A DNA stretch of 64,000 nucleotides, from contig CP113055.1 in the NCBI GenBank assembly GCA_026625625.1, positions 2,234,501-2,298,500 of the forward strand, written 5' to 3'. Below the pieces are notes generated by a model. That model was not told where the DNA came from and did not search any database. It saw only the letters and a list, made by a program, of their open reading frames with translations. The DNA is from Blastomonas sp. SL216. Its GTDB lineage: Bacteria > Pseudomonadota > Alphaproteobacteria > Sphingomonadales > Sphingomonadaceae. Below, piece after piece: positions 28,929 through 44,402 of the stretch. The position numbers were made by a program, and so were the translations under genes. How positions within the stretch are numbered: position 1 is the first letter of the stretch; every line of letters begins with the position of its first letter.

Positions 28929-30095
28929 ATGCGACGTTTTCCGGTCCGGCGGCTGAGCGATTGCCACACGGTCGATGATTTCCGCGAGCTGGCGCGCAAG
29001 AAGCTGCCCTATCCGGTCTTCCATTATATCGACGGTGCCGCCGATGACGAGGTGACCCGCAACCGCAACACCCAGGCCTATGAGGACTGCGATCTCGTCC
29101 CCAATGTGCTGGCAGGCGTGTCCGATATCGACATGTCGACCACGCTGATGGGCCGCAAGATCGATATGCCGCTGTTCCTCTCGCCCACCGCGCTGCAACG
29201 CCTGTTCCACTGGCGCGGCGAAAAGGCGGTCGGTGCGGCTGCGGAAAAGTTCGGCACGTTCTTCGGCATCTCATCGCTCGCGACCGTCAGCCTGGGCGAG
29301 ATTGGCGACAGCATATCCAGTCCCAAGCTGTTCCAGCTCTATGTCCACAAGGACAAGGGGCTGAACGCGGCGCTGATCGAGGCGGCCAAGGCGGCGAAGT
29401 TCGACGCGCTAGCGCTGACGGTGGACACCATCGTTTCGGGCAAGCGCGAACGCTGCCTGCACACCGGCTTCACCTCGCCGCCGCGGCTGACTCCGGGATC
29501 GGCGATGAGCTTTGCCATGCACCCTTCCTGGACGCTCAACTATCTGGGGCGGGAGCGGTTCTCGCTGCCCAATCTGGAAAGCCATATCGCAGCGGGCAGC
29601 AACGCGGCCATTTCGGTGGCGGACTATTTCAACACCATGCTCGACCAGAACATGGACTGGGCGATGGCCGAGCAGATCCGCGCTGCCTGGGGCGGTCCGT
29701 TCTGCCTCAAGGGCGTGATGAGCGTCGAGGACGCACGCCGCGCGGTCGATATCGGCGCGACGGCGATCATGGTCTCCAACCATGGCGGCCGTCAGCTCGA
29801 TGGCAGCCGTGCCCCGTTCGACCAGCTGGCAGAGATCGTCGATGCGGTCGGCGACCGGATCGAGGTGATCTGCGATGGCGGCATCACGCGCGGCACCCAT
29901 GTGCTGAAGGCGCTGAGCGTCGGGGCCAAGGCGTGCTCGGGCGGGCGGCTCTACCTCTATGCGCTCGCCGCCGGGGGCCAGCGCGGCGTGGAGCGGACGC
30001 TTGCCAATCTGCGCGGGGAAATCGAACGCGGCATGAAGCTGATGGGCGTCACCAATCTCGATCAGCTCAGCCGGGGCAACCTGCGCTGGCGGTGA
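28929..30095 (+). CDS. FMN-dependent alpha-hydroxy-acid dehydrogenase (LldD-like)
   Basis: The product has 388 residues. It oxidises 2-hydroxy acids such as lactate with FMN. Y-I-D-G-A-A-D-D-E near the start, F-L-S-P-T-A-L, L-T-V-D-T, C-L-K-G-V-M-S with the FMN lysine, and S-N-H-G-G-R-Q-L-D with the catalytic His and Arg are all in place. The typical membrane-binding loop of E. coli LldD cannot be judged, so L-lactate specificity is only likely. The stop is directly adjacent to the stop of gspH on the other strand. A short 6-bp hairpin (TTGCCG/CGGCAA, 28822-28838) precedes it. Confidence 0.88.
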   Translation: MRRFPVRRLSDCHTVDDFRELARKKLPYPVFHYIDGAADDEVTRNRNTQAYEDCDLVPNVLAGVSDIDMSTTLMGRKIDMPLFLSPTALQRLFHWRGEKAVGAAAEKFGTFFGISSLATVSLGEIGDSISSPKLFQLYVHKDKGLNAALIEAAKAAKFDALALTVDTIVSGKRERCLHTGFTSPPRLTPGSAMSFAMHPSWTLNYLGRERFSLPNLESHIAAGSNAAISVADYFNTMLDQNMDWAMAEQIRAAWGGPFCLKGVMSVEDARRAVDIGATAIMVSNHGGRQLDGSRAPFDQLAEIVDAVGDRIEVICDGGITRGTHVLKALSVGAKACSGGRLYLYALAAGGQRGVERTLANLRGEIERGMKLMGVTNLDQLSRGNLRWR

Positions 30096-30656
30096 TCATT
30101 TGGGGCGGCCGACCTCGCCGGTCGCGCTGATGACGATGCGGTCGCTGTTGGTGCCGCGCGCCAGCACCACGGTGACGGGCATGTTCGGCAGCCCGGTCGA
30201 ATCGAACCAGAAGCGCGCGCGGCCCTGATCCTCCGCCTTCTCGTCTCCCTCTGCCACGGTGCCTTCGATCCGCGCCATCGTGCCCGGCTTCCAGTCGCGA
30301 TTGGCTAGCGTGCGCGCGTTGAGCGGCACCCATTGCCGGTCCTGCCGCGCGTCGAAGCCATAGCCCGACGGCGCGATCCATACCGCGATCGGGCGCGCGC
30401 TCACCACCGCCTCATCGCGCGCCGCCGCGACGCGCGCGGCGAAGCGATCGGCATCTTCGGACAGGGCAGCGCTGTCGCCGGGCAGCGCCAGCACCACTGC
30501 GCCTGCCACCAGGCCGATGATGAACAGCACCACCATCAGTTCGATCATGGTGAAGCCGCTGCTAAAATCCTCCCCGAGCTTGTCTCGGGGAGGGGGACCG
30601 CGCCGCGCAGCGGCGGGGTGGAGGGGAAGCGTGGCGCACATCTTTTCACGGGGCAT
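30096..30656 (-). CDS. gspH: type II secretion minor pseudopilin GspH
   Basis: The product contains the prepilin motif S-S-G / F-T-M-I-E-L-M-V-V with Glu at +5 and a following hydrophobic helix, then a GspH-type beta domain ending in a C-terminal S-A-T-G-E-V-G-R-P. GspH sits in the minor pilin tip of the T2SS pseudopilus. The start is unusual: no native start codon lies close to the cleavage site. The only usable codons are ATG 30656 or ATG 30641, which give leaders of 34 or 29 residues encoded largely by a dispersed palindromic repeat. GGTGGAGG lies upstream of 30656. It is the last gene of this gsp cluster; gspI-N are not here. Confidence 0.8.
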   Translation of the reverse strand: MPREKMCATLPLHPAAARRGPPPRDKLGEDFSSGFTMIELMVVLFIIGLVAGAVVLALPGDSAALSEDADRFAARVAAARDEAVVSARPIAVWIAPSGYGFDARQDRQWVPLNARTLANRDWKPGTMARIEGTVAEGDEKAEDQGRARFWFDSTGLPNMPVTVVLARGTNSDRIVISATGEVGRPK

Positions 30657-30757
30657 GCACCCGCTGCCCCTCCACCATTTGCTGCGCAAATGGTCCCCCT
30701 CCCCCAGCGAGCTGGGGGAGGATTTGAGAAGACCTGGCCCCAGCGCGCTGGGGGAGG
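30569..30757. repeat. palindromic repeat cluster, copy 2 (within the gsp operon)
   Basis: Several inverted repeats are packed between gspG and gspH: CCTCCCCGAG/CTCGGGGAGG at 30569-30593, ACCATTTGC/GCAAATGGT around 30674-30694, CTCCCCCAGC/GCTGGGGGAG around 30700-30720 and CCCCAGCG/CGCTGGGG at 30738-30753. The string GCTGGGGGAGGATTTGAG occurs twice in direct orientation. The cluster fills the whole gspG-gspH gap and extends into the gspH coding frame. Confidence 0.75.
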
Positions 30758-30768
30758 ATTTGAGGGCG

Positions 30769-31239
30769 TTAAGCCCCATCGGCCTTGATGTCCGCATTCT
30801 CGGCTTCACCGCCCGGTGCGCCATCGGCGCCCAGCGAATAGAGGTCGAAAGCCCCGGTCGTGCCCGGGCTGATATACTGGTACGGGCGGCCCCAGGGGTC
30901 CTGTGGCAGCTTCTTGATATAGCCGCCGCTGCGATAGCGGCCCGGCTGTGCCAGCGTCGGCGGTGCCGAAACCAGCGCGTTCAGCCCCTCGGCGGTGCCG
31001 GGATAGGCCAGGTTGTCGAGCCGGTACATTTCCAGCGCCTGGCCCAATGTGGCGATATCGCTGCGTGCCTTTTCGGTCATCGCCTTGTCCTGGCTGGGCA
31101 GCACGTTGATGACGACGATGGTCGCGAGCAGGCCGATGATGAAGATCACCACCATCAGCTCGACCAGGGTAAAGCCGTTGGCGCGCTTGGCGGCCTTGGG
31201 GCTGAGGCGCTTCAACAGCAGGGTTCGGATATTCAGCAT
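30769..31239 (-). CDS. gspG: type II secretion major pseudopilin GspG
   Basis: The product has 156 residues. The leader is 22 residues, basic, ending A-N-G before the cleavage site; the mature N-terminus F-T-L-V-E-L-M-V-V-I-F-I-I-G has Glu at +5. The C-terminal part has the GspG signature D-P-W-G-R-P-Y-Q-Y and the calcium-site loop with G-A-D-G-A-P-G-G. It is processed by a prepilin peptidase (gspO, not in the window) and polymerises into the T2SS pseudopilus. It lies nine bases after gspF. Confidence 0.95.
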   Translation of the reverse strand: MLNIRTLLLKRLSPKAAKRANGFTLVELMVVIFIIGLLATIVVINVLPSQDKAMTEKARSDIATLGQALEMYRLDNLAYPGTAEGLNALVSAPPTLAQPGRYRSGGYIKKLPQDPWGRPYQYISPGTTGAFDLYSLGADGAPGGEAENADIKADGA

Positions 31240-31248
31240 GGTCTTCCT

Positions 31249-32457
31249 CTAAAGTCCGGTCAGGTTCTGAAGCTGCAGGATCGGCAGCAGGATCGACAGG
31301 ATGATCAGCGCGACCGCCCCGCCCATCACCACGATGATCGCAGGTTCCAGCAGCGCCATCGCCGTGGTGGTGAAATTGCGGAACTCGCGCTCGAGATAAT
31401 CGGCAGCGCGTTCCAGCATGATATCGAGCTGCCCCGCGCTCTCGCCGCTGGCGACAAGATAGACCAGCAGCGGCGGAAACGTCCCTGCATTGCGCAGCGC
31501 CGCCGACAGCGAGCCACCCGAGCGGATCGCCTCCACCGCCTGTTCCAGCGCCTCGCGCAGCACACTGTTGCGCACGGTGCGCGTGGTGAGCTTCATCCCC
31601 TCGAGCAGCGGCAGGCGGCTTTGCACCATGGTCGCCAGCGTCCGCGCCAGCCTTGCGGCATTCATGTCGCGGATCAGCCGCCCGATAAAGGGCAGCTTCA
31701 GCAGCAGCGTATCGACCCGGTATTTGAACGCAGGCACTTTCATGGCGCGCCAGAAGCCGATTGCGGCGAGCAGGCCTGCCAGCATCATCGCCCACCACCA
31801 GTCGGCGAGAAAGGCCGAAATGCCGATGACGATGCGGGTGATCAGCGGCAGCTGGGTCTGCGCATTGTCGAACTGTTCGACCACGCGCGGCACCACCGAG
31901 ATCATCAGGCCGGCGACCACGCCCAGCGCCACCAGCGTCAGGATGATCGGATAGGCCAGCGCCGAAATGAGCTTGCCGCGCACCTCGGCCTGTTGTTCGA
32001 GCAGCATCGCCAGCCGCTCGGTTATGACGGGCAGCGAGCCCGAGCTTTCGCCCGCACTGATCATCGCGCGGTACAGCGGCGGGAAGCTGCGCGGTTCGCG
32101 CGCCATCGCCTCGGCCAGCGACTGGCCCTCCATCACCCCGCCATGCACATTGATCAGCACCGCGCGCGCGTTCGCCTTCTCGGTCTGGCGGCTGATCGTG
32201 CGCAAGGCCTCTTCGAGCGGGCTGACCGACATCAGCGATGACATCTGCCGGGTGAACAGCGTCAGCTGCTTGGGGCTCAATCGCGCGGTGGCATCGCGCG
32301 ACAACAGGGGCTTGCGCGGCGGCGCAGGGCTAACCGCGACGATATGGAACGACTTGCGGATAAGCGCGGCGCGCGCCTGTGCGTCGGAAGCGGCGGAGAT
32401 GCGCCCTTCCCGCTCGCGCCCGGCCGCATCGATCACCCGATAGGCAAAGTCAGCCAT
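31249..32457 (-). CDS. gspF: type II secretion inner-membrane platform protein GspF
   Basis: The product has 402 residues. Two homologous T2SF domains, each with conserved helices and a G-E-x-S-G motif (S-A-G-E-S-S-G-S-L-P and V-A-S-G-E-S-A-G-Q-L-D), and three transmembrane helices (two around residues 170-225, one near the C-terminus) match GspF. The N-terminal F-A-Y-R-V-I-D-A-A-G-R-E start is typical. The start overlaps the gspE stop by eight bases. It forms the inner-membrane core with GspC and the ATPase. Confidence 0.95.
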   Translation of the reverse strand: MADFAYRVIDAAGREREGRISAASDAQARAALIRKSFHIVAVSPAPPRKPLLSRDATARLSPKQLTLFTRQMSSLMSVSPLEEALRTISRQTEKANARAVLINVHGGVMEGQSLAEAMAREPRSFPPLYRAMISAGESSGSLPVITERLAMLLEQQAEVRGKLISALAYPIILTLVALGVVAGLMISVVPRVVEQFDNAQTQLPLITRIVIGISAFLADWWWAMMLAGLLAAIGFWRAMKVPAFKYRVDTLLLKLPFIGRLIRDMNAARLARTLATMVQSRLPLLEGMKLTTRTVRNSVLREALEQAVEAIRSGGSLSAALRNAGTFPPLLVYLVASGESAGQLDIMLERAADYLEREFRNFTTTAMALLEPAIIVVMGGAVALIILSILLPILQLQNLTGL

Positions 32458-34039
32458 CGATCGTTTCAGGCGGCACCGGCTCGGCCTCGCGCCGGGAGAT
32501 GCGGATCGCCTCTTCCGCCGTGGTCTGGCCGGTCCGCACCAGTTCGCGCGCGGCCGAGCCCAGGTTCGGCGCGTTCAGGAACGCATGCCGCGCGATGATC
32601 GCCTCGTCGCCATTGTCGTTGATCAGGCGGCGGAGAGTCTCATCGACCCGCACCGCCTCGAACACGCCGATCCGGCCCTGGAAGCCGGTATGGTTGCAAT
32701 GATCGCAGCCGACCGGACGATAGACCACCGTGCCCTTGTCGAAGCCGAGCAGCGAGGCGAGCGAACCATCGGCCTGCACCGGCTCGCGGCATTCGGGGCA
32801 CAGCCGCCGTACCAGTCGCTGGGCAACTACCGCGCGCAGGGTGGAGGCGAGCAGGAACGGCTCGATCTTCATGTCGCGCATGCGCGTGATCGCGCCGATC
32901 GCGTCATTGGTGTGCACGGTCGAGAGCACCAGATGCCCGGTGAGCGAGGCCTGGACCGCGATTTCCGCCGTCTCGTGGTCGCGGATTTCGCCGATCATCA
33001 CGACATCGGGGTCCTGGCGCAGGATGGCGCGCAGCCCGGCGGCAAAGGTGAGCCCGACCTTGGGATTGACCTGGGTCTGGCCGACGCCTTCGATCGCATA
33101 TTCGACCGGATCCTCGACGGTCAGCATGTTGCGCGATCCGTCATTCAACTGCTTGAGGCACGAATAGAGCGTGGTCGTCTTGCCCGATCCGGTGGGGCCG
33201 GTGACCAGAATGATGCCATTGGGCTCGCCCAGCGCCTCGGCCAGGATCTTGTGGGTGCGCGGGCTCATGCCCAGCAGCCCCAGGTCCATATTGGCATTTT
33301 CCTTGTCGAGCAGGCGCAGCACGACGCGCTCGCCCGCGCGGCTGGGCAGGGTCGAGACGCGCACGTCGAGCAGCTTGCCGCCGATGGTGAGGCCGATACG
33401 GCCGTCCTGCGGCACGCGGCGTTCGGCAATGTCCAGGCGCGCCATCACCTTGATGCGGCTGACGATCACCGGCGCGACATTGGGCGGCATCCGCAGCTTT
33501 TCCTGCAGCACGCCATCCATGCGCATGCGGATGACAAGGCCTGTCTCATAGGGCTCGATATGGATGTCCGACACGCCCTGGCGCGCGGCCTCTGCAATCA
33601 CCCCGTTGATCAGGCGGATGGCGGGCGCATCGTCGGCGCTGTCGAGCAGATCCTCGGCGCTCGGCAGGTCGCTCGCCAGCAGCTCCAGATCGCCACCATC
33701 GATGTTGAGCGAGCTGGCCATGGCCGCGGCATTGCCTTCGACCGCATAATGATCGGACAGATAGCGCTCGAACTGCGCCACCGGGGCCAGTTCGACATCG
33801 AACGGCATTGCCAGGTAACGCCGGACCTCGAGCAGCGCCAGCGGGTCCGCACCCTCGCGCAGCGCGACCTTCAGCCGCCCATCGGCCTCGCCCAGCATGA
33901 CCACGCCATTGTCGCGGGCAAAGCCATAGGGAATGTCGAGCATCACGCGGGTCAGCGTCCGCTCCACATCGGCGGCAGCCACCGCCTCGGTCACGCTTTC
34001 GACAGCCTCGTCGGGCGCATCGCCCTTGCGGATGATCAT
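32450..34039 (-). CDS. gspE: type II secretion ATPase GspE
   Basis: The product has 529 residues. An N-terminal GspE/MshEN domain precedes the ATPase core with Walker A G-P-T-G-S-G-K-T-T at 281-289, the Asp box around V-E-D-P-V-E-Y, Walker B V-V-M-I-G-E-I-R-D, and the His box S-T-V-H-T-N-D. A zinc-binding tetracysteine C-P-E-C ... C-D-H-C near residues 425-448 is intact, as in active T2SS ATPases. It is cytosolic and powers pseudopilus assembly. It overlaps gspD by four bases (ATGA) and gspF by eight. Confidence 0.95.
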   Translation of the reverse strand: MIIRKGDAPDEAVESVTEAVAAADVERTLTRVMLDIPYGFARDNGVVMLGEADGRLKVALREGADPLALLEVRRYLAMPFDVELAPVAQFERYLSDHYAVEGNAAAMASSLNIDGGDLELLASDLPSAEDLLDSADDAPAIRLINGVIAEAARQGVSDIHIEPYETGLVIRMRMDGVLQEKLRMPPNVAPVIVSRIKVMARLDIAERRVPQDGRIGLTIGGKLLDVRVSTLPSRAGERVVLRLLDKENANMDLGLLGMSPRTHKILAEALGEPNGIILVTGPTGSGKTTTLYSCLKQLNDGSRNMLTVEDPVEYAIEGVGQTQVNPKVGLTFAAGLRAILRQDPDVVMIGEIRDHETAEIAVQASLTGHLVLSTVHTNDAIGAITRMRDMKIEPFLLASTLRAVVAQRLVRRLCPECREPVQADGSLASLLGFDKGTVVYRPVGCDHCNHTGFQGRIGVFEAVRVDETLRRLINDNGDEAIIARHAFLNAPNLGSAARELVRTGQTTAEEAIRISRREAEPVPPETIDG

Positions 34040-36225
34040 GGCTGGCCTCCGCCATTGGTCTGCTGCTGTTGCTGTGCAGGCTGGCTGGGCGGCAGGGTGG
34101 TGCTGTCCAGCGGCGCCGTACCCGGAATCGCGCGCGGTGCGATGATCTGGTCGCTCGGCCCGGCAGGCGGCGCGACCGGCACGTTGGCGCCGAGATATTC
34201 GAGCACGATCTTGTCGAGCGAAGGCTCGGCCTTGGGGTCGAATTCGACCTGCGCCGCACGGACATAATTGTAGCGACGCGCCGCCAGCGCCTGCGCATCC
34301 TCCGCCGTCCGCAGGATGGTCGGGCGGATGAAGACCATCAGATTGGTCTTTGTCCGCTCCTTGCCGCGCGACTTGAAAAGCTCGCCCAGGATCGGAATGT
34401 CGCCGAGCAGCGGGATCTTCTGGATCGTGCGCCGCTCGTTGTCGTCGAGCAGGCCGCCGAGCGCAATGATCTCGCGGTCCTTGACCGTGACCGTCGTCTT
34501 GACCTCGCGCTTGTTGATGATCAGCTCGTTGAAATCATCGCTGACCGGGCCGACGATCGAGCTGACCTCCTGCCGGATGTCGAGCTTGACCTGATTGCCC
34601 GCGTTGATCTGCGGCTTTACCTCCAGCTCGATGCCGACATTCTGGCGCTGGATAGTGCGGAAGGCATTGTCGAAATTGTTCGACAGCGCCTCGCCGGTGC
34701 TGATCGGAATTTCCTGGCCGAACAGGATCGACCCCTTCACGTTGTCGTTCACGGTGAGCGACGGCGTCGACAGGATGTTCGACTCGCTGTCTTCCTGCAC
34801 CGCGTTGATGATCGCACCCAGCACGCGGTTGTTGCCGATGTCCGCAGCAAAGCCCGAATAGCCACCGCGCGCGCCCAGAATGCTGCTCGCAGCATTCTGG
34901 CGCAGCGTGTCGCCGATCGCGCTGTTGGTGCTGGTGGTGACGGTGTTGCCGTTGATCACCGTGGTGGTCTGGTCGAGATTGTCCGCCAGGATGCCGCCGG
35001 CAATATCGAGAATGTTCGGCGACACGTTCGAGAATGGCGTGACGAGGAACGGAATATCCTTGCCACCGATCAGGAACTGCACGCCCAGTTCGCGCGCCAC
35101 CCGGTCGGAAATCTCGACGATGATCGCCTCGACCAGCACCTGCTCCTGGCGGATGTCGAGCTGACGCACCAGCTCTGCCAGCGAGCGCTGAACGTCGACC
35201 GGCGCAGAGATGATGACCGCATTTGCGCCCTCATAGCGGGTGATGATCGCCTGGCCGCGTCCGTTGGAAAGCGCCACCGCGCCGCCGACCGGGGCCGATG
35301 CCGCTGCGGAGGCCGCGCCGTTGGCAGACGGGGCCGCAGCCGGGGTCGCGGACATCGGGCTTACCGCCCCGCCCCCTTGCGCGCCGACCATCATCTGCAG
35401 CACCGGCACCAGCTGTTCGGCATCGGCATAGTCGAGCCAGATGACGCGAATTTCGCTGCCATTGGCAGCGCGCGCGTCGAGTTCCTTGGCAATCGCTGTC
35501 AGCCGCGCGACGGTCGGTGCATCGCCGCGCAGCGCGACCGAATTGCTCGAATCCACCGCGACCACCGATACCAGCGGCGCACCGCCGCCACCTTCGGCAC
35601 CGCCACCTGGCGCAGGCGCAAGCTGCTGCAGCGTCATCGCGATCTCGCGCGCGCCGGCATGCGAAAGCGTGATGACCTGGGTAGTCGCATTGTCGCGATC
35701 GATCTGGCCGATCAGCTGACGGATGCGGCGGATATTGTCGGCATAATCGGCGACGACCAGGCTGTTGCCGCTGCGATTGGCGGTGATCGATCCCTCGCGG
35801 CTGACCAGCGGGCGCAGCGTCTCGACCGCCGTGGTGGCGTCGATCGCGCGCAGGCGGAACACCTCGGTCACGAACTCGTTCTGCGCGCCGCGGCTGCCCA
35901 CCCGGCCCGGCGCAGAGGCGGCACCATCGGTCGGCTGGATGCGATATGCACCATTGGCGGTCGGCACCGCGATCAGCCCGTTGGCGCGCAGCGTCGACAG
36001 GAAGACCTCGAAATATTCGCTGCGGCTCAAGGGCCGGTCGGTGACCACCGAGACCTTGCCCTGCACGCGGCCATCGATGATGAAGGTGCGCCCGGTGACT
36101 TGCGCGGCATCCTCAATGAACGCGCGCACATCGGCATCGCGCACATTCAGGCTGTGCTGCGCCGCTGCGGGCTGGGCGAAAACGAGGGCCACGCCCAGCG
36201 CGAAAAGGGAGATGTGTTTTTTCAT
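34036..36225 (-). CDS. gspD: type II secretion outer-membrane secretin GspD
   Basis: The product has 729 residues with a signal peptide at about 1-22 (ending A-A-A-Q). The N0 domain starts with L-N-V-R-D-A-D-V-R-A-F and is followed by N1-N3 ring domains; N3 carries a long Ala/Gly-rich insert. The secretin domain has V-P-L-L-G-D-I-P-I-L-G-E-L-F and ends near residue 650, with a Pro/Gln-rich tail ending in a run of five glutamines. It forms the outer-membrane pore. No pilotin gene is visible. The start overlaps gspC by four bases. Confidence 0.95.
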   Translation of the reverse strand: MKKHISLFALGVALVFAQPAAAQHSLNVRDADVRAFIEDAAQVTGRTFIIDGRVQGKVSVVTDRPLSRSEYFEVFLSTLRANGLIAVPTANGAYRIQPTDGAASAPGRVGSRGAQNEFVTEVFRLRAIDATTAVETLRPLVSREGSITANRSGNSLVVADYADNIRRIRQLIGQIDRDNATTQVITLSHAGAREIAMTLQQLAPAPGGGAEGGGGAPLVSVVAVDSSNSVALRGDAPTVARLTAIAKELDARAANGSEIRVIWLDYADAEQLVPVLQMMVGAQGGGAVSPMSATPAAAPSANGAASAAASAPVGGAVALSNGRGQAIITRYEGANAVIISAPVDVQRSLAELVRQLDIRQEQVLVEAIIVEISDRVARELGVQFLIGGKDIPFLVTPFSNVSPNILDIAGGILADNLDQTTTVINGNTVTTSTNSAIGDTLRQNAASSILGARGGYSGFAADIGNNRVLGAIINAVQEDSESNILSTPSLTVNDNVKGSILFGQEIPISTGEALSNNFDNAFRTIQRQNVGIELEVKPQINAGNQVKLDIRQEVSSIVGPVSDDFNELIINKREVKTTVTVKDREIIALGGLLDDNERRTIQKIPLLGDIPILGELFKSRGKERTKTNLMVFIRPTILRTAEDAQALAARRYNYVRAAQVEFDPKAEPSLDKIVLEYLGANVPVAPPAGPSDQIIAPRAIPGTAPLDSTTLPPSQPAQQQQQTNGGGQP

Positions 36226-37130
36226 TTTTCCGGGATGATGATCGCGATGGGAAGGGTTTCGGTGCCACGTTCGACCTGCAGAGACAGGCGCGCGCCGGGC
36301 TTGAGCTGGCTGGAAAGCGCCGCCGCATCAGCTGCGGAACTGACTTTGCGGCCATTGATTTCGACGACGATGTCACCCGGCTTGAACCCGGCCTGCGCGA
36401 ACACCCCGCCATCGCCCTTGGCGCTGACGGCAAAGCCAGTGGCGCGGCCATTTTCCATGCGCGGGGCAAAGCCGATGCCGCCGGTGATCGCCTCGGCGCT
36501 GAGCGGCCCGGGGGCCTGAACCGTGGGCGGAGGCGTGGTGCCGGGGGCGGGCGCAGCGGTCATCGGCGCATCGCCGACGGTTTCGGCCGGGATCGACTGA
36601 TCGAGGAACAGGCTTTCGCGCGCGCCTCCGCGTTCCAGCACGACATGGTCGAACAGCACCTGCACCAGCTTGACGCCGGGCGAGACTTCTTCGCCGACGC
36701 CATAGCTGCGCTGGACGCCATCTGACCCGGCAATAATGGCGGAACCGCCACCGGAAGCCTCGTTCATCCGCAGGCCGTAAAGCGTGAGATCGAGCGAGGT
36801 CACGGCAGCGCTTGCCTCGCCACCCCCGGCGGCAGCGCGATCGAACCCGTCAAAGCTTGCGAACAGGGCGGCGCGTGCGGCAGGTGACATGACATTGGCG
36901 GTGCGCGCCTGCCATTCGCCCAGCGGCGCTATGGGGGTAACGATGGTCCAGACCAGCCGCGCGACCTGGATGATCAAGGCCAGCACGAGCAGTGCGCGCA
37001 ACCAGCCGTAAAGGCCTTGCGGAAGCCATCCAGCCCAGCCGCCCTGCCGTCCCTGAAACCGCGCCAGGCGGAATCGGGAGAGCGAAGCACTGAGGCCGGT
37101 CTGCGCGCCATTCTGGGCCGCTGATGCCAC
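36222..37130 (-). CDS. gspC: type II secretion inner-membrane protein GspC
   Basis: The product has 302 residues. A single transmembrane helix lies at about 43-64, then an HR domain that contacts the secretin N0, a Pro/Thr linker near 190-210 and a C-terminal PDZ domain at about 215-300 (F-K-P-G-D-I-V-V-E-I-N-G-R-K). PDZ-type GspC proteins help recognise substrates. The start is GTG at 37130, preceded by GGGAGTG. It is the first gene of the operon gspC-D-E-F-G-H, and a Pho-box-like array lies 60-88 bases upstream. Confidence 0.9.
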   Translation of the reverse strand: MASAAQNGAQTGLSASLSRFRLARFQGRQGGWAGWLPQGLYGWLRALLVLALIIQVARLVWTIVTPIAPLGEWQARTANVMSPAARAALFASFDGFDRAAAGGGEASAAVTSLDLTLYGLRMNEASGGGSAIIAGSDGVQRSYGVGEEVSPGVKLVQVLFDHVVLERGGARESLFLDQSIPAETVGDAPMTAAPAPGTTPPPTVQAPGPLSAEAITGGIGFAPRMENGRATGFAVSAKGDGGVFAQAGFKPGDIVVEINGRKVSSAADAAALSSQLKPGARLSLQVERGTETLPIAIIIPEK

Positions 37131-37189: not shown

Positions 37190-37218
37190 ATGACGGTTGG
37201 ATTACCAGTTTGTGACAG
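37190..37218 (-). promoter_or_regulatory. Pho-box-like array upstream of gspC
   Basis: Read on the minus strand, three heptamers recur with an 11-base period: CTGTCAC (37212-37218), TGGTAAT (37201-37207) and CCGTCAT (37190-37196). PhoB sites consist of CTGTCAT-like heptamers separated by four bases. The outer two are good matches (six of seven each) and the middle one is weaker. The site is 60-88 bases upstream of the gspC start, a position fitting PhoB activation. Confidence 0.5.
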
Positions 37219-37260
37219 ATATTTGAAGGAATTGCCGCTCGCGCCTGCAACCCGGACGCA

Positions 37261-37295
37261 GAAAAGGGGACCAGCACGATGCAGGCCCCCTTTTC
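37261..37295 (-). terminator. hairpin downstream of the TonB-dependent receptor gene
   Basis: GAAAAGGGG (37261-37269) pairs with CCCCTTTTC (37287-37295) around a 17-base loop, 28 bases beyond the receptor stop codon on the minus strand. The T-rich side is within the stem instead of after it, so it is a moderate terminator candidate. It would separate the receptor transcript from the gspC promoter region. Confidence 0.45.
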
Positions 37296-37323
37296 CGGAC
37301 GTTTCAAAAGGATGGTCGGATGA

Positions 37324-40041
37324 TCAGAATTCGAGCGAAGCGCTGATCGAGAAGGCCCGGCCGATCTCATAGGCATTGTTGCGGATCACCGACGTGTTGA
37401 GCCGCTGGAACTCGACATAATCGGTGCTCAGCAGGTTGCGCGCCTCGAACTTGAGTTCGCCCGTCTTGTTGAACAGCTTGAATCCCTCACGCCACACGAA
37501 GTCGAGACGCGGGCCGGTAAACTCGACGAAATCGGGCTGGCCTGCAGGACCGCGATTGGTGACGCGGTTGCTGTTCCACGACAGCAGGATGGTCTGCTGC
37601 GACAACCGCTCGCCGGTGCTTTCCATGCCGAACTGCACGTTGGCGATATGATCCGACTGGCCGGTCAGCGCAAAGCCACCGGTGCGGAAGATCGTCGAAG
37701 CGGCGACCATTGCGCCGCTCAGCGGGTCGGCGATCTGGTCCTGCGCGGTGACCTTCACGTCCGAATTGGTGTAGGTATAGTTGCCAGCCAGCAGCATGCG
37801 ACGCTCTTCGAAGAACGTACCGCCCAGGTCGATCAGGTCGAAATATTTCACCAGCTCGATTTCCGCACCGTACAGCGTCGCGGTCGGGGCGTTGGCAAAG
37901 GTGGTGAAGAAGTTGTCGCCCTGACGGAAGCCGAGATTTTCGATCGGGTCCTTGATGTCCTTGTAGAAGATCGCGGCGGTGAAGCGCTGGTCACGCTCGA
38001 AATACCATTCGAAACGGGTTTCAAGGTTGATCAGGCGGCTGTTCTTGAGGAACGGGTTGCCGAAGAAGGTGCGGTCGAACTCGAGATCGAGATATTGCTG
38101 CGGTGCCAGCTCGCGGAACTGCGGGCGGGCGATGGTCTTCGACGCAGCAAAGCGCAGCTGCATGTTTTCCGCCAGGTTCCAGGTCAGCGTCGCCGCCGGC
38201 AGCCAGTCGTCCTTCTTGATGTTGGTCGGCACCAGATTGGCGCTGCCCAGGCCGAACAGGTCGATCGGGGCCACGAACTGGTCGCCATCCTCGTAGCGAA
38301 CACCCGCCTGCAGCCTCAGGCTGTCGGCCAGTTCGGCTTCGAACTGCAGATAACCGGCCTGCACCTCCAGGCCCGCGTCATAGGCTGCGGCACCGTTGGT
38401 GCCCGAGGTTTCGACCAGACGGACATCGAACGTGTAGACGTTGAAATCCGACAGCAGGAAGTCGGGCCGCTGCTGCGACACGGCAAAGGGCAGCGGGCCC
38501 TGGCCGCTGAGGAAGCGGAAGTCGCGGCGGACCGAGGTACGGTCGTTCTTGTAATAGGCATAGCCCGCCGTGAACGTGATCGGCACGCCGATATCGGTTT
38601 CGTAGGCCAGATCGACGTTCGCGCCATAGACATTGTCGTCCAGGTCGCTGAACGCGATGCGCGCGCCTTCACCGGCAGACTGCAGATCGTTGACGAAGTC
38701 ATTGGCGACGGCATTGAAGGTGTAATCGAAGGTCCGCTCATACGGCGCTTCGCGCTGCGAATTAGCATAGCTGCCACGGAAGTTGAGGCGGAACGCGTCA
38801 AACTTCATCTCGCCGACAAACTGCGTGTTCATCAGCTGCCGCTCGAACCAGGTGGTACGGCTGCGGTTGATCAGCCGGGTATCGGTGACGCGGGCATCGA
38901 TACCCTCGCGGATCGATGCGTCCTTCACCGTGTCGCGGATGAACACGTTGGTCCATTTGAACTTGTGTTCGCCCACATCGGCGGTGACGCCGAACAGGCC
39001 GTTGACGACGATGCGGTTTTCGGTGGTCAGATAGTCGAAGTCGATATCGGGCAGCAGCGTATTGACGCCGTTCACCGGCACGATGCCCTGCGAAATCTGC
39101 TGCACGCCGCCGCGCGTACGCCAGGTATTGTTGATGCCGGCTGCGCCAACGATGCCGATATTGACATCACCCACCAGGAAGCTGGTCGCGCCGCTGATCT
39201 GGCCGGAGAAATTCACCGGAATGTTGTTGTTGCGCTGGATCAGCGAGGTGTTGGCATTGGCGAGGCTCGCCGTCAGGTCACGCACCTGCGCTGCGGTAAA
39301 GTTCGCGCCCGCAGCGATCGGGTTGCCGGAAGCAAATGCGTCGCGCAGGTTGCGCGGCAGGGTCCGCGCGCCGTTGTCGAAGCCGGTAAAGTCGGTCGAC
39401 GATCCGAAATAGGTATAACCCACCTCGCCCGTGGTGATCGTGTCGCCGCCGGTGCTGAACTCGATCTTGAAGAAGGGATCGCGCGGGACCGACTTGGTGG
39501 TGAGGTTGATGGCACCACCGCCGAATTCACCCGGATAATCCACCGAATAGCTCTTCTGGATGGTGGTCGAGGCGATGACGCTGGTGGGGAAGATGTCGAG
39601 CGGCACCGTACGGCGCAGCGGATCGGGCGAGGTCAGCGGTGATCCGTTCATCAGCGCGAGCGAATAGCGTTCGCCCAGGCCGCGCACGAACACGAAACGG
39701 CCGCCCACGACGCTGAGGCCGGTGACGCGCTGGAGCGATCCGGCAATGTCGCCATCGGCGGTGCGGGCGATGTCCGCCTCGCTCAGCACCGACACGACTT
39801 CAGGGGTCGCCTTGATCGGGTTGGGAATGAAGCGGCCACGCACCACGATTTCACTGTTGCCACCGGCACCGGGGCCGGAAATCTCGATATCCCCCTCGGC
39901 AGGTGCCTCTTCGGCGGGCGCATCGGCAGCCGGCGTCTCGGCCTGCGGCGCGGGAGCCTCCTGCGCAAAGGCGGCCGGCGAAACCAGCGCCGAGCTGACC
40001 ATCAGCAATGCAGCGAATGAAAGCGGCGTGAACTTCGCCAT
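37324..40041 (-). CDS. TonB-dependent outer-membrane receptor
   Basis: The product has 905 residues with a signal peptide at about 1-26 (ending A-F-A-Q), then a Pro/Ala/Glu-rich linker. The plug domain includes E-I-V-V-R-G-R-F, V-F-V-R-G-L-G-E-R-Y and Y-P-G-E-F-G-G-G-A-I-N-L-T-T-K, followed by a 22-strand-type barrel ending in an aromatic-rich strand I-S-A-S-L-E-F. It would import a ligand across the outer membrane with TonB energy. It follows the beta-helix lipoprotein gene by 77 bases with a strong terminator between. Ligand unknown; the neighbouring phoD and Pho-box-like sites suggest a phosphorus compound. Confidence 0.93.
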   Translation of the reverse strand: MAKFTPLSFAALLMVSSALVSPAAFAQEAPAPQAETPAADAPAEEAPAEGDIEISGPGAGGNSEIVVRGRFIPNPIKATPEVVSVLSEADIARTADGDIAGSLQRVTGLSVVGGRFVFVRGLGERYSLALMNGSPLTSPDPLRRTVPLDIFPTSVIASTTIQKSYSVDYPGEFGGGAINLTTKSVPRDPFFKIEFSTGGDTITTGEVGYTYFGSSTDFTGFDNGARTLPRNLRDAFASGNPIAAGANFTAAQVRDLTASLANANTSLIQRNNNIPVNFSGQISGATSFLVGDVNIGIVGAAGINNTWRTRGGVQQISQGIVPVNGVNTLLPDIDFDYLTTENRIVVNGLFGVTADVGEHKFKWTNVFIRDTVKDASIREGIDARVTDTRLINRSRTTWFERQLMNTQFVGEMKFDAFRLNFRGSYANSQREAPYERTFDYTFNAVANDFVNDLQSAGEGARIAFSDLDDNVYGANVDLAYETDIGVPITFTAGYAYYKNDRTSVRRDFRFLSGQGPLPFAVSQQRPDFLLSDFNVYTFDVRLVETSGTNGAAAYDAGLEVQAGYLQFEAELADSLRLQAGVRYEDGDQFVAPIDLFGLGSANLVPTNIKKDDWLPAATLTWNLAENMQLRFAASKTIARPQFRELAPQQYLDLEFDRTFFGNPFLKNSRLINLETRFEWYFERDQRFTAAIFYKDIKDPIENLGFRQGDNFFTTFANAPTATLYGAEIELVKYFDLIDLGGTFFEERRMLLAGNYTYTNSDVKVTAQDQIADPLSGAMVAASTIFRTGGFALTGQSDHIANVQFGMESTGERLSQQTILLSWNSNRVTNRGPAGQPDFVEFTGPRLDFVWREGFKLFNKTGELKFEARNLLSTDYVEFQRLNTSVIRNNAYEIGRAFSISASLEF

Positions 40042-40059
40042 ATGTCCCTCCAGTAATTC

Positions 40060-40096
40060 AAAAAAGGGGGCGGCGGCGTGTGTTCGCCGCCGCCCC
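40060..40096 (-). terminator. rho-independent terminator between lipoprotein and receptor genes
   Basis: On the minus strand a perfect 12-bp G+C stem (arms 40085-40096 and 40067-40078, loop of six) is followed, after one further C, by six T residues (40060-40065). This is a classical intrinsic terminator. It lies after the lipoprotein stop (40119) and ends 18 bases before the receptor start codon (40041), so it sits inside an otherwise continuous gene pair and may lower receptor expression relative to the lipoprotein. Confidence 0.85.
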
Positions 40097-40118
40097 GCAA
40101 CCGGTCAGCGGTCTGCAA

Positions 40119-41669
40119 TCAGGTGGTCGGAATGCTCGGTGCTGCCGTGCAGGCCGGGGTCGTGCTGTAGAGACCGCAGGTCCAACCCTGGAAGCGCGTG
40201 TCAGCCGCATCGCGCACCGCACCGATATAGGTGACGGCAGTGTAGAAGCTGTTGATCGCGGTCACGTTGAACACCGGACGCGCCGTCTCGTTCGCGCCGT
40301 TGATGAAGATGCCCGACAGCGTCGAGGTGCCGTTGATGGTGTTGTTCGAACCAGCGGTGAACAGCGCCTGGATCGAGGCAACGGTCACGTTGCCATCGTC
40401 GGTAAAGGCGTTGGGGCAGCTCAGGAACACCGATTCAAAGCGCGGCGGACCAGCTTCATCGCCGGCACCGGCGGTGCCGGTGGCCTGCATGGTGACAGCC
40501 GAGTCGACGTCGAGACACCAGCCGGGACCGGTGATGACGCTGTTGAACGCGGCAAAGTCCATGCCGCCGCGCAGCAGGATATCGGCTTCATCAGCCGTGG
40601 TCTGGGTCGACACGAAGGTGGCGTTCGACATCGACCAGGCGGTGCGCGGCTCGGCCTGTTCGTTGCCGTTCGAATCGCCTTCGATCACGTGGTTGGCGCT
40701 GGCAGTCTGGATGCCGAGCAGGAACTGGTTGAAGCCCTTGTAGCCCAGATCCATGTCGAAGGTGTCGTCGTCATTGCCCAGGCCGACCAGGTTGCGGCCA
40801 TTGACGCGTCCGCCGAACCATTCGATGCCATCATCCGAGCTGTTATAGACCTGGACGTTCTGGAAGAAGGTGCCAGAGCCCACGCCTGCCAGGGTGATGC
40901 CGTTCAGTTCGTTGCCCGGCTGAACTTCAAAGCCCGAATAGCGGACCTGGAAGAAGGCGATGCGGCCGCTATTGTCGGTCGGCACGGCACCGCCATAATT
41001 GGCGTTGGTGCCTTCGACGACGCCCGAACAGTCGGTGCGGGTGCCGCCGGGGTTGGTCGGCGAACCGGTGGCGCAGTCGGACAGCGGTGCGCGGCCGAGG
41101 ATGACGACGCCGCCCCACAGGCCCTTGGAGTTGGCAGTGGCAGTGCCCACCACGTTGTCGCGTGCGGTGAAGATGATCGGACGGTCAGCGGTGCCTTCGG
41201 CGAACAGCTGCGAGCCGCGGTTGACCAGCAGGAAGTCGGCGCCCGACGAACCGAAGAAGGTCACGCCCGGCTCGATCGTCAGGATGGCGGCGGTACCGGT
41301 GCTGGCGGTGGGGCCGACATCGATGCCGACCTGAACGCGGCCCGAGAGCGAATAGATGGTACCGGCGCGGCGCGGGATCACCAGGTTGGTGGTGATGGTG
41401 CCCGACAGCTGGCAGTTGCGAGCGACAGCGCCCGAACCGGTGGTGATGGTGCCGACATTGGCGGTGCCGTTGGGGCAATCAGCTGCAGGTCCGGTCGGCG
41501 TGGGGGTCGGGGTCGGGGTCGGCGTGGGGGCCGGAGCAGGCGCGGGCGCCGGGGCCGGAACGACGATGGTGCCTTCGCCGGGCGAGGCAACGTCATCTGC
41601 GCCGCAGGCCGACACCGCAAGGGCGGCCACCGAAACCATCAGGACCGAACGAACACGTGCATTAAGCAT
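40119..41669 (-). CDS. outer-membrane-type lipoprotein with predicted beta-helix
   Basis: The product has 516 residues. The lipobox is L-A-V-S-A-C with Cys at residue 22 followed by Gly-Ala-Asp-Asp, so outer-membrane sorting is plausible. A Pro-Ala then Pro-Thr repeat linker of about 28 residues follows, then a long region rich in short beta strands, Gly and Asn (G-L-W-G-G-V-V-I-L-G, N-S-S-D-D-G-I-E-W-F-G-G), like right-handed beta-helix proteins. Paired cysteines occur. I know similar proteins beside TonB-dependent receptors in Sphingomonadales but no function. ATG 41669 has GGAGA upstream. A Pho-box-like array lies about 140 bases upstream. Confidence 0.75.
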   Translation of the reverse strand: MLNARVRSVLMVSVAALAVSACGADDVASPGEGTIVVPAPAPAPAPAPTPTPTPTPTPTGPAADCPNGTANVGTITTGSGAVARNCQLSGTITTNLVIPRRAGTIYSLSGRVQVGIDVGPTASTGTAAILTIEPGVTFFGSSGADFLLVNRGSQLFAEGTADRPIIFTARDNVVGTATANSKGLWGGVVILGRAPLSDCATGSPTNPGGTRTDCSGVVEGTNANYGGAVPTDNSGRIAFFQVRYSGFEVQPGNELNGITLAGVGSGTFFQNVQVYNSSDDGIEWFGGRVNGRNLVGLGNDDDTFDMDLGYKGFNQFLLGIQTASANHVIEGDSNGNEQAEPRTAWSMSNATFVSTQTTADEADILLRGGMDFAAFNSVITGPGWCLDVDSAVTMQATGTAGAGDEAGPPRFESVFLSCPNAFTDDGNVTVASIQALFTAGSNNTINGTSTLSGIFINGANETARPVFNVTAINSFYTAVTYIGAVRDAADTRFQGWTCGLYSTTPACTAAPSIPTT

Positions 41670-41805
41670 CTTGGAATCTCCGCAAATCAGGACAGCGGGC
41701 GCTGCCAGCCTTTTGAGGAACGAGCGGAGATGAGCTGATTCCACCCCCTGGAACACCGTTCGGGGCGGCAGATAGGCAGGCATGATGACCCTGCGGGGCC
41801 ATTTC

Positions 41806-41834
41806 AATGACAGTGGAGAGACAGGAATGTGACT
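41806..41834 (-). promoter_or_regulatory. Pho-box-like array upstream of the lipoprotein gene
   Basis: On the minus strand three heptamers with an 11-base period are seen: AGTCACA (41828-41834), TGTCTCT (41817-41823) and TGTCATT (41806-41812). The spacing and the GTC core match PhoB-type direct repeats; the middle unit is the weakest. It lies 137-165 bases upstream of the lipoprotein start codon, leaving room for a promoter and leader. Confidence 0.45.
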
Positions 41835-42030
41835 CTTTGGAGTCTTATGTGAACATTGTGCGACAAGGCCGGGCAGGCCAGCCCAAAACCCTTGGATTCG
41901 CGTGACTCTGATGGCGCGGCGATGCTGGCGGAATGGCCTTGCAAACAATTGCCGGGTTCATCGCCCTGTCCCGATTATCGACACTATGGGCGTCGCACGT
42001 GACTATTGTGCAACACGGCATGACCGGCAA

Positions 42031-42063
42031 AACAAAACCCGGCCGGATGATGATCCGGCCGGG
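42031..42063 (-). terminator. rho-independent terminator of the TPR-like gene
   Basis: An 11-bp stem, CCCGGCCGGAT with its complement ATCCGGCCGGG (42038-42063, four-base loop), is followed on the minus strand by TTTTGTT. It lies 35 bases beyond the stop of the minus-strand TPR-like gene, the expected position. Confidence 0.8.
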
Positions 42064-42097
42064 TCGATAGCGTTAACCCTTTCGGGATGAAGGAGGA

Positions 42098-42508
42098 TCA
42101 GCGGCTGGCATAGCCCTGATCGAGGCGGCGCAGCGCATGGCGTGCAGCGACGCGGCTGTCCATCACCCGTCCGTCGGACAGGATGACATCGAACGAACGC
42201 TCGGCGCTGATCGCAGCCTGGTAATGGCTGCGGGCCATGGCGAGATCGCCCATCTTGGCATAGGCCAGACCCATGTTGATCAACCGTGCGGGATCGCGGC
42301 GGGCGGCCGGAGAAACCTGTTGCTCAGCCGCCTGCATCTGTTCGAGCGCGACCGGATAATTGCCCTTGAGCAGCGCGGCATAACCCAGCGCGCCCGTCTC
42401 ATAGCCGATTTCGTTCGCCGCCACCCGGGTCTGCACAGGCTGGGCAATCGCCGGAGCAGCCATACCGAGGGCGGCCAGGGCCGCGAATGTGATAACTTTG
42501 GTGTTCAT
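42098..42508 (-). CDS. small secreted TPR-like protein
   Basis: The product has 136 residues with a signal peptide at about 1-22 (ending A-I-A-Q). The mature part has tetratricopeptide-like helices: Y-A-A-L-L-K-G-N-Y-P-V-A-L-E-Q-M and I-N-M-G-L-A-Y-A-K-M-G-D-L-A-M-A-R-S-H-Y. It is probably periplasmic and could act in protein-protein contacts. It is divergent from phoD across a 208-base region that carries the Pho-box-like site, so shared control is possible. An intrinsic terminator follows it. Confidence 0.8.
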   Translation of the reverse strand: MNTKVITFAALAALGMAAPAIAQPVQTRVAANEIGYETGALGYAALLKGNYPVALEQMQAAEQQVSPAARRDPARLINMGLAYAKMGDLAMARSHYQAAISAERSFDVILSDGRVMDSRVAARHALRRLDQGYASR

Positions 42509-42575
42509 GTCAGCATTCCTTTCTGTCTGTGACGAGAGGAATGCTACGCTTATGTGACAGCTGTAGCAATACGAA

Positions 42576-42615
42576 TGTCACATAAAATACGCCTGAATGT
42601 CATATTTCTGTAATT
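42576..42615 (+). promoter_or_regulatory. Pho-box-like site upstream of phoD
   Basis: Heptamers TGTCACA (42576-42582), TGTCATA (42598-42604) and TGTAATT (42609-42615) lie in phase with an 11-base period (one unit skipped). The 18 bases at 42597-42614 read ATGTCATATTTCTGTAAT, which agrees with the enterobacterial Pho-box consensus at 15 of 18 positions by my count. It lies 102 bases upstream of the chosen phoD start. A further CTGTCAC half-site is on the other strand near 42560, facing the TPR-like gene. Confidence 0.6.
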
Positions 42616-42716
42616 TTGTGGATCAGGCGGTTTGTCACACGCCCGCAATGTCCCTTGACCAAAAGGCCCCCGCGCTGTCCGATGCGCGCAAACACAAAGC
42701 GGAGAGGGGCACCCCC

Positions 42717-44402
42717 ATGACCATGACGATCGATCGCAGGCTGCTGATCAAGGCCGGAACCTTCGGCCTCGCGGCACTGTCGCTGCCCGGCGCGGCCAGG
42801 GCGCTGTTCGCCGGTCGCGGATTTACCCATGGCGTGGCCAGTGGTGAGCCTTCGGCCGATTCGGTGCTGCTGTGGACCCGCTATGTCGCGGACAATGACG
42901 CACGCCTCACCGCAGAGCTTTCGCCCACCCCCGATTTTGCCAAGGTCACCGGTGGCGGGTCGGTCACCGCCAGCGGCACGCGCGACCATATCGCCAAGAT
43001 CACGGTGCGCGGCCTGAAGCCGGGCAGCTGGTATTTCTATCGTTTCGTGGCGGAGGACGGCAGCATGTCGCCGGTCGGTCGCACTCGCACCCTGCCCAAG
43101 GGCGAAACCGGCGCGTTCAACCTGGGCGTCTTTTCCTGCTCCAACCTGCCCTTTGGCTGGTTCAACGCCTATGGCCATGCCGCAGCGCGCAACGATATCG
43201 ACCTCGCGCTGCACCTGGGCGACTATATCTATGAATATGGGCCTGACGTGTATCCGACGCGCGGCCAGGCGCTGCCCGGACGTCTGGTCCAGCCCGATCA
43301 CGAGATGGTCACGCTCGCCGATTATCGCCTGCGCTATGCCAGCTACCGGCTCGACCCCGATCTGCAGCGGCTGCACCAGAGCGTGCCGATGATCGCGATG
43401 TGGGACGATCACGAGATTGCCAATGATGCCTGGAAGGGCGGCGCGCAGAACCATCAGGATGCAACCGAAGGCGACTACGCCACCCGCCGCCGCATCGCCG
43501 AACAGGTCTATCGCGAGTGGATGCCGGTGGCTGACCTTGCGCCCGCCGATGCGCTGTGGACGAGCTATCAGATCGGCAATCTCGCCACCATCATTCGCAC
43601 CGAAAGCCGACTGTCCGGCCGCGACAAGCCCGCCGAGCTGGCCGAAGCCTTTGCCGGCGGCGGCGACATCGCCAAGGCACTGGCCAAGTTCCGCGACGAG
43701 ACCTGGATGGACCCCAGCCGCCAAATGTTCGGCGACGATCAGGCACGCTGGCTGGGCGAGCAGTTCAAGGCATCGAAAAAGGCCGGCACGCGCTGGCAAG
43801 TCTGGGCGCAGCAATGCGTGATGGGATCGCTCAAGCTGCCGGTCGAAACCGCGCAATGGGTGCCCAAGGATGCGCCCGAGATCGTCCGCACCCGTTCGGC
43901 CGCCGGTCTCGCCGCGAGCAAGGCAGGGCTGCCGTTCAACATGGACGCGTGGGATGGCTATCCGGTGCAGCGCGAGGCACTGCTCAAGTCGGCCCAGGCC
44001 GCCGATGCCGATCTGGTCGTGCTGTCGGGTGACAGCCACAATGGCTGGGGCTTTGATCTGGCCGCCGATGGCAAGCCGGCGGGCGTCGAGTTTGCGGGCC
44101 ATTCGGTCAGCTCGCCGGGGTTCGAAACCTACGCGCCGACCGTATCGCCCAAGGATGTCGCAGGCGCGCTGATTCGCGGCAATCCGCAGCTCAAATGGGC
44201 CGATACCAGCAGTCGCGGCTATATGACGGTCAATCTGACGCAGGAGCGCGCGACCGCCAACTGGCATGCGATGCGCACCATTCGGGAGCATTCGCTCGAC
44301 CTGGCCGGAACCGAAAGCCGCAGCGTGCTGCCCGGCCGCAAGGTGCTGGCAGAGCCCGGCTGGTCGCGCTGGAGCCCGTCGGACGCCGCCACACAGGCCT
44401 GA
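42717..44402 (+). CDS. phoD: PhoD-type alkaline phosphatase / phosphodiesterase, Tat-exported
   Basis: The product has 561 residues. The N-terminus has a Tat signal (I-D-R-R-L-L-I-K-A-G, hydrophobic run to about 30). An N-terminal Ig-like domain starts at F-T-H-G-V-A-S-G-E-P, then comes the metal-dependent PhoD domain: L-H-L-G-D-Y-I-Y-E, M-W-D-D-H-E-I-A-N-D and S-G-D-S-H-N-G-W. It releases phosphate from mono- and diesters outside the cytosol, usually with Ca/Fe. ATG 42717 was chosen because an upstream in-frame ATG at 42597 is part of the Pho-box-like site and would break the Tat signal. It may be a substrate of the nearby T2SS. Confidence 0.93.
   Translation: MTMTIDRRLLIKAGTFGLAALSLPGAARALFAGRGFTHGVASGEPSADSVLLWTRYVADNDARLTAELSPTPDFAKVTGGGSVTASGTRDHIAKITVRGLKPGSWYFYRFVAEDGSMSPVGRTRTLPKGETGAFNLGVFSCSNLPFGWFNAYGHAAARNDIDLALHLGDYIYEYGPDVYPTRGQALPGRLVQPDHEMVTLADYRLRYASYRLDPDLQRLHQSVPMIAMWDDHEIANDAWKGGAQNHQDATEGDYATRRRIAEQVYREWMPVADLAPADALWTSYQIGNLATIIRTESRLSGRDKPAELAEAFAGGGDIAKALAKFRDETWMDPSRQMFGDDQARWLGEQFKASKKAGTRWQVWAQQCVMGSLKLPVETAQWVPKDAPEIVRTRSAAGLAASKAGLPFNMDAWDGYPVQREALLKSAQAADADLVVLSGDSHNGWGFDLAADGKPAGVEFAGHSVSSPGFETYAPTVSPKDVAGALIRGNPQLKWADTSSRGYMTVNLTQERATANWHAMRTIREHSLDLAGTESRSVLPGRKVLAEPGWSRWSPSDAATQA

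Follow-up and report, generated by a model that had tools for sequence, protein, structure and literature searches.

The 64,000-nucleotide stretch analyzed here, hereafter the window, comes from Blastomonas sp. SL216 (contig CP113055.1 of assembly GCA_026625625.1; the genome is a single 3.86-Mb contig). It carries what is probably the Blastomonas version of the Caulobacter-type ElpS/TonB-receptor/T2SS locus under the control of PhoB, and we regard this as the best explanation of the data as a whole. The genes, their order, the regulatory sites, and the strand and conservation of these sites were observed directly. On the minus strand, the order is gspH, G, F, E, D, and C (30096-37130), a TonB-dependent receptor gene, a lipoprotein gene, and a small TPR gene. 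The plus strand carries phoD (42717-44402), followed by an M13 peptidase gene (44564-46762). The features of the locus are as follows:

30096..30824, minus strand: gspH, the last gene of the gsp run (PF12019 GspH)
30769..31239, minus strand: gspG (PF08334 T2SSG)
31249..32457, minus strand: gspF, assigned from its position, the gene order, and tblastn matches in relatives
32450..34039, minus strand: gspE, the ATPase (PF00437, 473 bits)
34036..36225, minus strand: gspD, the secretin (TIGR02517, 545 bits)
36222..37130, minus strand: gspC (PF11356 T2SSC and PDZ; TIGR01713 at 71 bits, under the cut-off of 101.6)
37190..37218, minus strand: putative three-unit Pho box facing gspC, CTGTCAC-aaac-TGGTAAT-ccaa-CCGTCAT, 60-88 bases before the start
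37324..40041, minus strand: TonB-dependent receptor, the partner of elpS, in the position of Caulobacter cc0171 (PF00593, PF07715)
40067..40096, minus strand: 12-pair G+C hairpin in the gap from elpS to the receptor gene, with a T run after it (fold z-score −4.85)
40119..41669, minus strand: elpS-like lipoprotein gene, 516 residues, with the lipobox VSAC, a P/T-rich linker, and a predicted right-handed beta-helix
41807..41835, minus strand: putative three-unit Pho box facing elpS, GAGTCAC-attc-CTGTCTC-tcca-CTGTCAT
42098..42508, minus strand: small TPR-repeat protein (PF07719; signal peptide judged by eye)
42543..42560, minus strand: fourth and weaker Pho-box-like site, oriented toward the TPR gene, CTGTCACataaGCGTAGC, score 13.4
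42597..42614, plus strand: putative two-unit Pho box facing phoD, ATGTCAT-attt-CTGTAAT, lying 103-120 bases upstream of the likely start (42717)
42717..44402, plus strand: phoD, phosphatase/phosphodiesterase (PF09423, 331 bits; PF16655, 89 bits)

A convergent open reading frame of another kind (28929-30095, plus strand) abuts gspH. The lipoprotein is 96% identical to that of the Blastomonas natatoria DSM 3183 locus. A promoter scan detected no sigma-70-like promoter at the gene starts and two elsewhere, against 1.3 expected. The earlier note had described three CTGTCAT-like sites, upstream of gspC, of the lipoprotein gene, and of phoD. All three sites are present, with the elpS site shifted by one base from where it had been placed; the T2SS is also present, but the window holds only gspC-H.

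The layout is shared with the elpS locus of Caulobacter, which has the lipoprotein, the TonB receptor, and the gsp genes in the same order and a lipoprotein gene under low-phosphate control. In the excerpts of the 2010 report on that locus, elpS (cc0170), cc0171, and gspC-N (cc0172-0184) are given in this order, and Caulobacter ElpS is described as a palmitoylated outer-membrane surface lipoprotein that was detected solely in phosphate-poor media (PMC2996285). Its overproduction raises the alkaline phosphatase activity of the medium, and none was seen for ElpS itself, according to the same text (PMC2996285). For Caulobacter gspE and gspL, expression is stated there for either medium, 1.7-fold higher in the poor one, and cc0171 is reported to be constitutive (PMC2996285). 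A 2024 study, again as excerpted, lists the T2SS in a Caulobacter PhoB regulon that comprises 47 genes (PMC11208175). The earlier note did not know a combined locus of this kind from sphingomonads; the combination is on record, since the excerpts of the 2010 report name Sphingomonas alaskensis, together with Hyphomonas neptunium and Xanthomonas campestris, as carrying an elpS homologue and T2SS genes in tandem (PMC2996285).

The Blastomonas locus differs from that of Caulobacter in several respects. Its gsp run stops after gspH, with the remaining genes at two further places in the genome; a strong three-unit Pho box faces gspC; phoD is attached with a Pho box of its own; and a strong hairpin separates elpS from the receptor gene. 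The core (lipoprotein, receptor, and T2SS) is already known, and no record was found of the form with phoD attached: among the matches listed from the PubMed Central open subset, no paper concerned the Blastomonas form of the locus or PhoD export by a T2SS. Hxc of Pseudomonas is a phosphate-regulated T2SS, and its likeness to the Blastomonas locus lies in that idea. To our knowledge, Hxc has no ElpS-receptor-PhoD arrangement. As a precedent proposed for the present locus, Hxc holds for the idea of a phosphate-regulated T2SS, but the Caulobacter ElpS locus is nearer.

The sites were scored with a Pho-box matrix in 11-base phase that was trained solely on pst-promoter sites of relatives. Twelve of 19 pst loci were used, and the seven without a clear site, by our own judgement, were excluded. 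The training sites were picked by the CTGTCAT consensus; the matrix thus owes nothing to this locus, though it does depend on the motif idea. Chance expectations were taken from 30 simulated first-order Markov windows of 64 kb, scored on both strands. The phoD site ranks first in the window with a two-unit score of 20.8 (0.03 expected per simulated window), and the gspC site ranks second with 18.2 (0.07 expected). As three units, the gspC site has the highest score of the window, 28.0, which was reached in none of the 30 simulated windows. The two-unit score of the elpS site, 9.6, is ordinary (4.0 expected per simulated window), and its three-unit score of 12.2 is expected 0.03 times. Hence, in the weight-matrix comparison that had been suggested, the phoD and gspC sites take the top ranks of the window and the elpS site stands out only as three units. 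In 117 kb of sequence from this genome that was unselected for the motif and includes the window, two positions reach a score of 18. The plain consensus of 14 letters has four sites with at least 11 matches in 64 kb, and the phoD and elpS sites have 12 matches each.

Conservation was investigated in the window and in stretches of 40 relatives by scoring upstream regions, that of elpS over 300 bases. The mean best score was compared with those from 200 column-permuted matrices, in which the base preferences are kept. Within the genus (n = 9 including the window), the two-unit mean for phoD is 21.0 against a permuted maximum of 15.0 and that for gspC is 18.6 against 14.7, and none of the 200 permuted matrices reaches either value. 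The three-unit mean for phoD is weaker, as would be expected of a two-unit site: 4 of 200 permuted matrices reach it. The core of this site is identical in the 7 relatives listed. For elpS in the genus (n = 9), one of 200 permuted matrices reaches the two-unit mean and none the three-unit mean. Outside the genus, the elpS signal is clear (n = 32; two-unit mean 12.8, permuted maximum 9.8, with 0 of 200 reaching the two- or three-unit mean), and the gspC signal is marginal (n = 16; two-unit mean reached by 2 of 200, three-unit mean by 1 of 200). The site facing the TPR gene has a genus mean of 11.1, which 7 of 200 permuted matrices reach; it is only suggestive of a real Pho-box-like site.

Named loci, 79 in all, were examined as a further set. 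They were divided roughly, by our own judgement, into Sphingomonadales-type loci and other taxa, with some genus-less MAGs in the first group and some sphingomonad fragments (L127, L130, L159, and L161 among them) in the second. A score of at least 12 was found in the Sphingomonadales-type loci for 27 of 45 elpS and 9 of 18 gspC upstream regions, and in the other taxa for 10 of 30 and 2 of 14, respectively. The elpS and gspC means of the Sphingomonadales-type loci were each reached by none of 300 permuted matrices. Because the sets of relatives share some genomes, these counts must not be added across sets. With the sphingomonad matrix, an elpS box was found in 3 of 8 Caulobacteraceae-family loci and in none of 3 Brevundimonas loci. 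From these patterns, Pho control of elpS seems to extend widely among sphingomonads. That of gspC looks patchy, with candidate sites in Blastomonas, Sphingopyxis, and Sphingobium and none in several Sphingomonas loci.

Could the heptamer repeats be chance promoter sequence instead of PhoB sites? Upstream regions may be richer in A+T, and the elpS two-unit score is ordinary by itself. However, the column-permuted matrices have the same base preferences and score far lower. The opposite strand upstream of elpS and gspC also scores low, and the internal controls of the relatives set, taken upstream of the receptor gene, of gspD, and of the M13 gene, have background scores only. The opposite strand of the phoD region reaches 11.1 because the divergent TPR site lies there. 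We rejected a chance origin on the simulated windows, the permuted matrices, and the named loci, and consider it highly improbable. The 11-base-phased CTGTCAT-like repeats recur on the strand of the gene in orthologues, most strongly for phoD and gspC within the genus and more weakly for the elpS site of the window. Thus the sites are strand-specific and recurrent in relatives, as the conservation check proposed in the earlier note had called for, and its suggestion of PhoB-type control of elpS, gspC, and phoD gains computational support from the matrix and permutation scores.

A stringent Pho-box pattern has five exact matches in this genome, against two for the backwards control. They include phoD, a site before a phosphate-selective porin O/P gene, and a site before a TonB receptor gene; the remaining two belong to a Pycsar-effector-domain gene and an HNH gene, neither with a phosphate role. 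The stringent pattern misses the gspC and elpS sites because of their degeneracy. The exact pattern at the Pycsar match (2075761-2075777) overlaps the listed 5' part of the PycTM-domain open reading frame. If functional, this Pho box would tie phosphate status to phage defence.

The T2SS genes of SL216 are split over three chromosomal places, namely gspC-H in the window, gspI-J-K near 2.147 Mb (L255:9099-11163), and gspL-M-N near 2.575 Mb (L270:4786-7096), and the uninterrupted gspC-gspN cluster that defines the Caulobacter type is absent from this genome. A first search at E 0.001 did not find GspL in the genome, and GspL scores under the Pfam cut-offs. An incomplete T2SS was considered and rejected: a weak GspL match (E 0.00103) led to gspL-M-N, and GspK led to gspI-J-K. 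No site scoring at least 9 precedes gspI or gspL in this genome, where a Pho box was found only for the gspC-H part of the T2SS. In one relative (G006), a site of 18.0 lies near gspK on the opposite strand. The gspD gene follows elpS-receptor in 30 of 67 named loci and in 6 of the 8 Caulobacteraceae-family loci with enough sequence.

PhoD of the window has the catalytic and N-terminal domains, and its score of 239 with the NCBIfam equivalog NF058638 is under the cut-off of 1000. A putative Tat-like signal with the twin-arginine motif DRRLLIKAG was judged by eye, and the genome has a second PhoD. The three transcription units may all be PhoB targets with PhoD as a mere neighbor that stays periplasmic, in which case the T2SS would serve the release of ElpS and unrelated enzymes; we give this alternative about an even chance. 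The phoD promoter is divergent from, and separate from, the elpS side. Among the other relatives, phoD was beside elpS in none of 32 stretches (up to 20 kb); of 79 named loci, one has a phoD, by a 30% match. In two relatives (G030 and G017), phoD lies 14-15 kb from elpS, and that of G030 has no Pho box (best score 3.2). In addition, the excerpted Caulobacter work links the T2SS to the release of ElpS, which is T2SS-dependent and protease-inhibitor-sensitive, the T2SS effect being an indirect one (PMC2996285). Against a mere neighbor, phoD adjoins elpS and keeps its own Pho box in all 8 Blastomonas relatives, including two in which the neighboring cassette has been swapped (see below). The idea that PhoD forms part of a combined locus is thus sustained for Blastomonas but only in that genus, and the closely attached phoD gene looks special to it.

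The lipoprotein was set beside cc0170 by gene order and description; its identity to three Brevundimonas homologues is 43-45%. With a profile of 31 homologues, 113 of the 249 Brevundimonas-family genomes gave a match, mostly at full length. Brevundimonas and other genomes of that family have relatives of the lipoprotein next to receptor and gsp genes, with the gene order unchanged. Matches to ElpS were also seen in frames of about 910-1000 residues with two tandem copies (L105-L108 and L112-L114), which belong to several other families of the order and class. The small TPR gene is a recurrent neighbor of elpS, with a match in 19 of 79 named loci, divergent in a number of them. After the lipid-carrying cysteine, the lipoprotein has a CGADxxASPGxG-like motif (window 41571-41606, residues 22-33). 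C-x(4-8)-SPG occurs within the first 60 residues in 41 of 55 homologues, several of the others being without an N-terminus, and the motif is a possible sorting signal.

A right-handed beta-helix is predicted for ElpS, for which no specific enzyme relative was found. The mean pLDDT of the model is 88, and residues 15-40 are below 50. Searches of Pfam, NCBIfam, and PDB sequences with the lipoprotein gave no family; the best Pfam hint, seen for 3 of 31 members, was Beta_helix at E 0.16. The model had no Foldseek match at E 0.001 or better, and the VIA list for the model contains the common beta-helix only. Among 55 aligned sequences, the acidic residues D279, D280, E283, D301, D305, and E330 are invariant; the structure alignment excludes L141, L167, L170, L176, and L133, which have a stop inside the given coordinates, and L202.

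These features bear on another possible reading, in which ElpS and the receptor would form an uptake pair for a phosphorus-containing glycan or polymer, the T2SS would release a matching depolymerase, and the beta-helix would bind or cut the polymer. The invariant acidic residues are in its favor, and the structures nearest to the ElpS model are beta-helix polysaccharide enzymes and tailspikes. Against it, beta-helices are alike at this level, and there was no Foldseek match at the above threshold. The excerpts of a study on Flavobacterium, which also speak for this reading, describe abundant low-phosphate lipoproteins (FI, FII, and FIII) as polygalacturonase-like and as modestly homologous to ElpS of Caulobacter, with 31-36% identity at a coverage of 50-54% (PMC8115612). 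Two of them lie beside TonB transporters, as here, and no T2SS gene is named for these loci in the excerpted text (PMC8115612). Unlike the Blastomonas pair, the Flavobacterium Pus systems (PusCD) have SusD-type partners, as far as the excerpts tell. We hold the polymer-uptake reading tentatively, as somewhat doubtful.

The elpS and receptor genes form a tight pair. The receptor gene lies immediately 3' of elpS in all 8 Blastomonas relatives and all 8 Caulobacteraceae-family loci, as well as in 30 of 32 other relatives and 78 of 79 named loci. In two Blastomonas relatives (L076 and L117), elpS and the receptor gene have been swapped together for a version whose proteins are 62-69% identical to those of Sphingopyxis-type loci. 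Compared with window positions 37300-41600, the DNA identity per 400-base bin is 50-70% inside this cassette and 65-87% in the flanks. This joint exchange suggests that the two genes move as one. A Pho box of the receptor gene's own was considered and rejected, as its upstream regions score at background in the window and in relatives. The place given to the receptor in the phosphate module therefore goes too far: it adjoins elpS, but it has no Pho box of its own and sits behind the terminator-like hairpin. Six Blastomonas loci with the same cassette have this hairpin and the 2 with the swapped one do not, and one of a similar kind was found in 44 of the 101 elpS-receptor gaps examined in all taxa. 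It would let ElpS exceed the receptor in amount, and such an effect would fit the report that cc0171 is not phosphate-controlled.

In our preferred explanation, the Caulobacter-type locus under PhoB would operate as follows. At low phosphate, PhoB would bind the three promoters of elpS, gspC-H, and phoD. ElpS, with its beta-helix tethered by a flexible P/T-rich linker, would reach the cell surface beside the receptor, which would be made at a lower or constitutive level behind the terminator. The two would work together to capture phosphorus-containing compounds, and the receptor would import the compounds that ElpS captures or that secreted enzymes set free. The T2SS would release ElpS and possibly other enzymes, and PhoD, exported by the Tat pathway, would free phosphate from esters. 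We infer the binding and induction by PhoB, the surface exposure, the joint action of receptor and ElpS, and any secretion of PhoD from sequence data. A bolder version is conceivable but unlikely: only gspC-H of the divided T2SS would respond to PhoB, so that secretion is switched on via a limiting subset; PhoD would be a Tat-exported cargo; and ElpS-receptor would be an exchangeable pair, a beta-helix counterpart of SusD-SusC, for phosphorus-containing polymers.

The Caulobacter-type locus under PhoB would extend the phosphate-starvation secretion system of Caulobacter to sphingomonads, with evidence at the level of sites that elpS, the secretion genes, and a phosphatase may share PhoB control. 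It would also offer a tractable case for studying the function of ElpS and the choice of T2SS cargo alongside the phosphate response in alphaproteobacteria.
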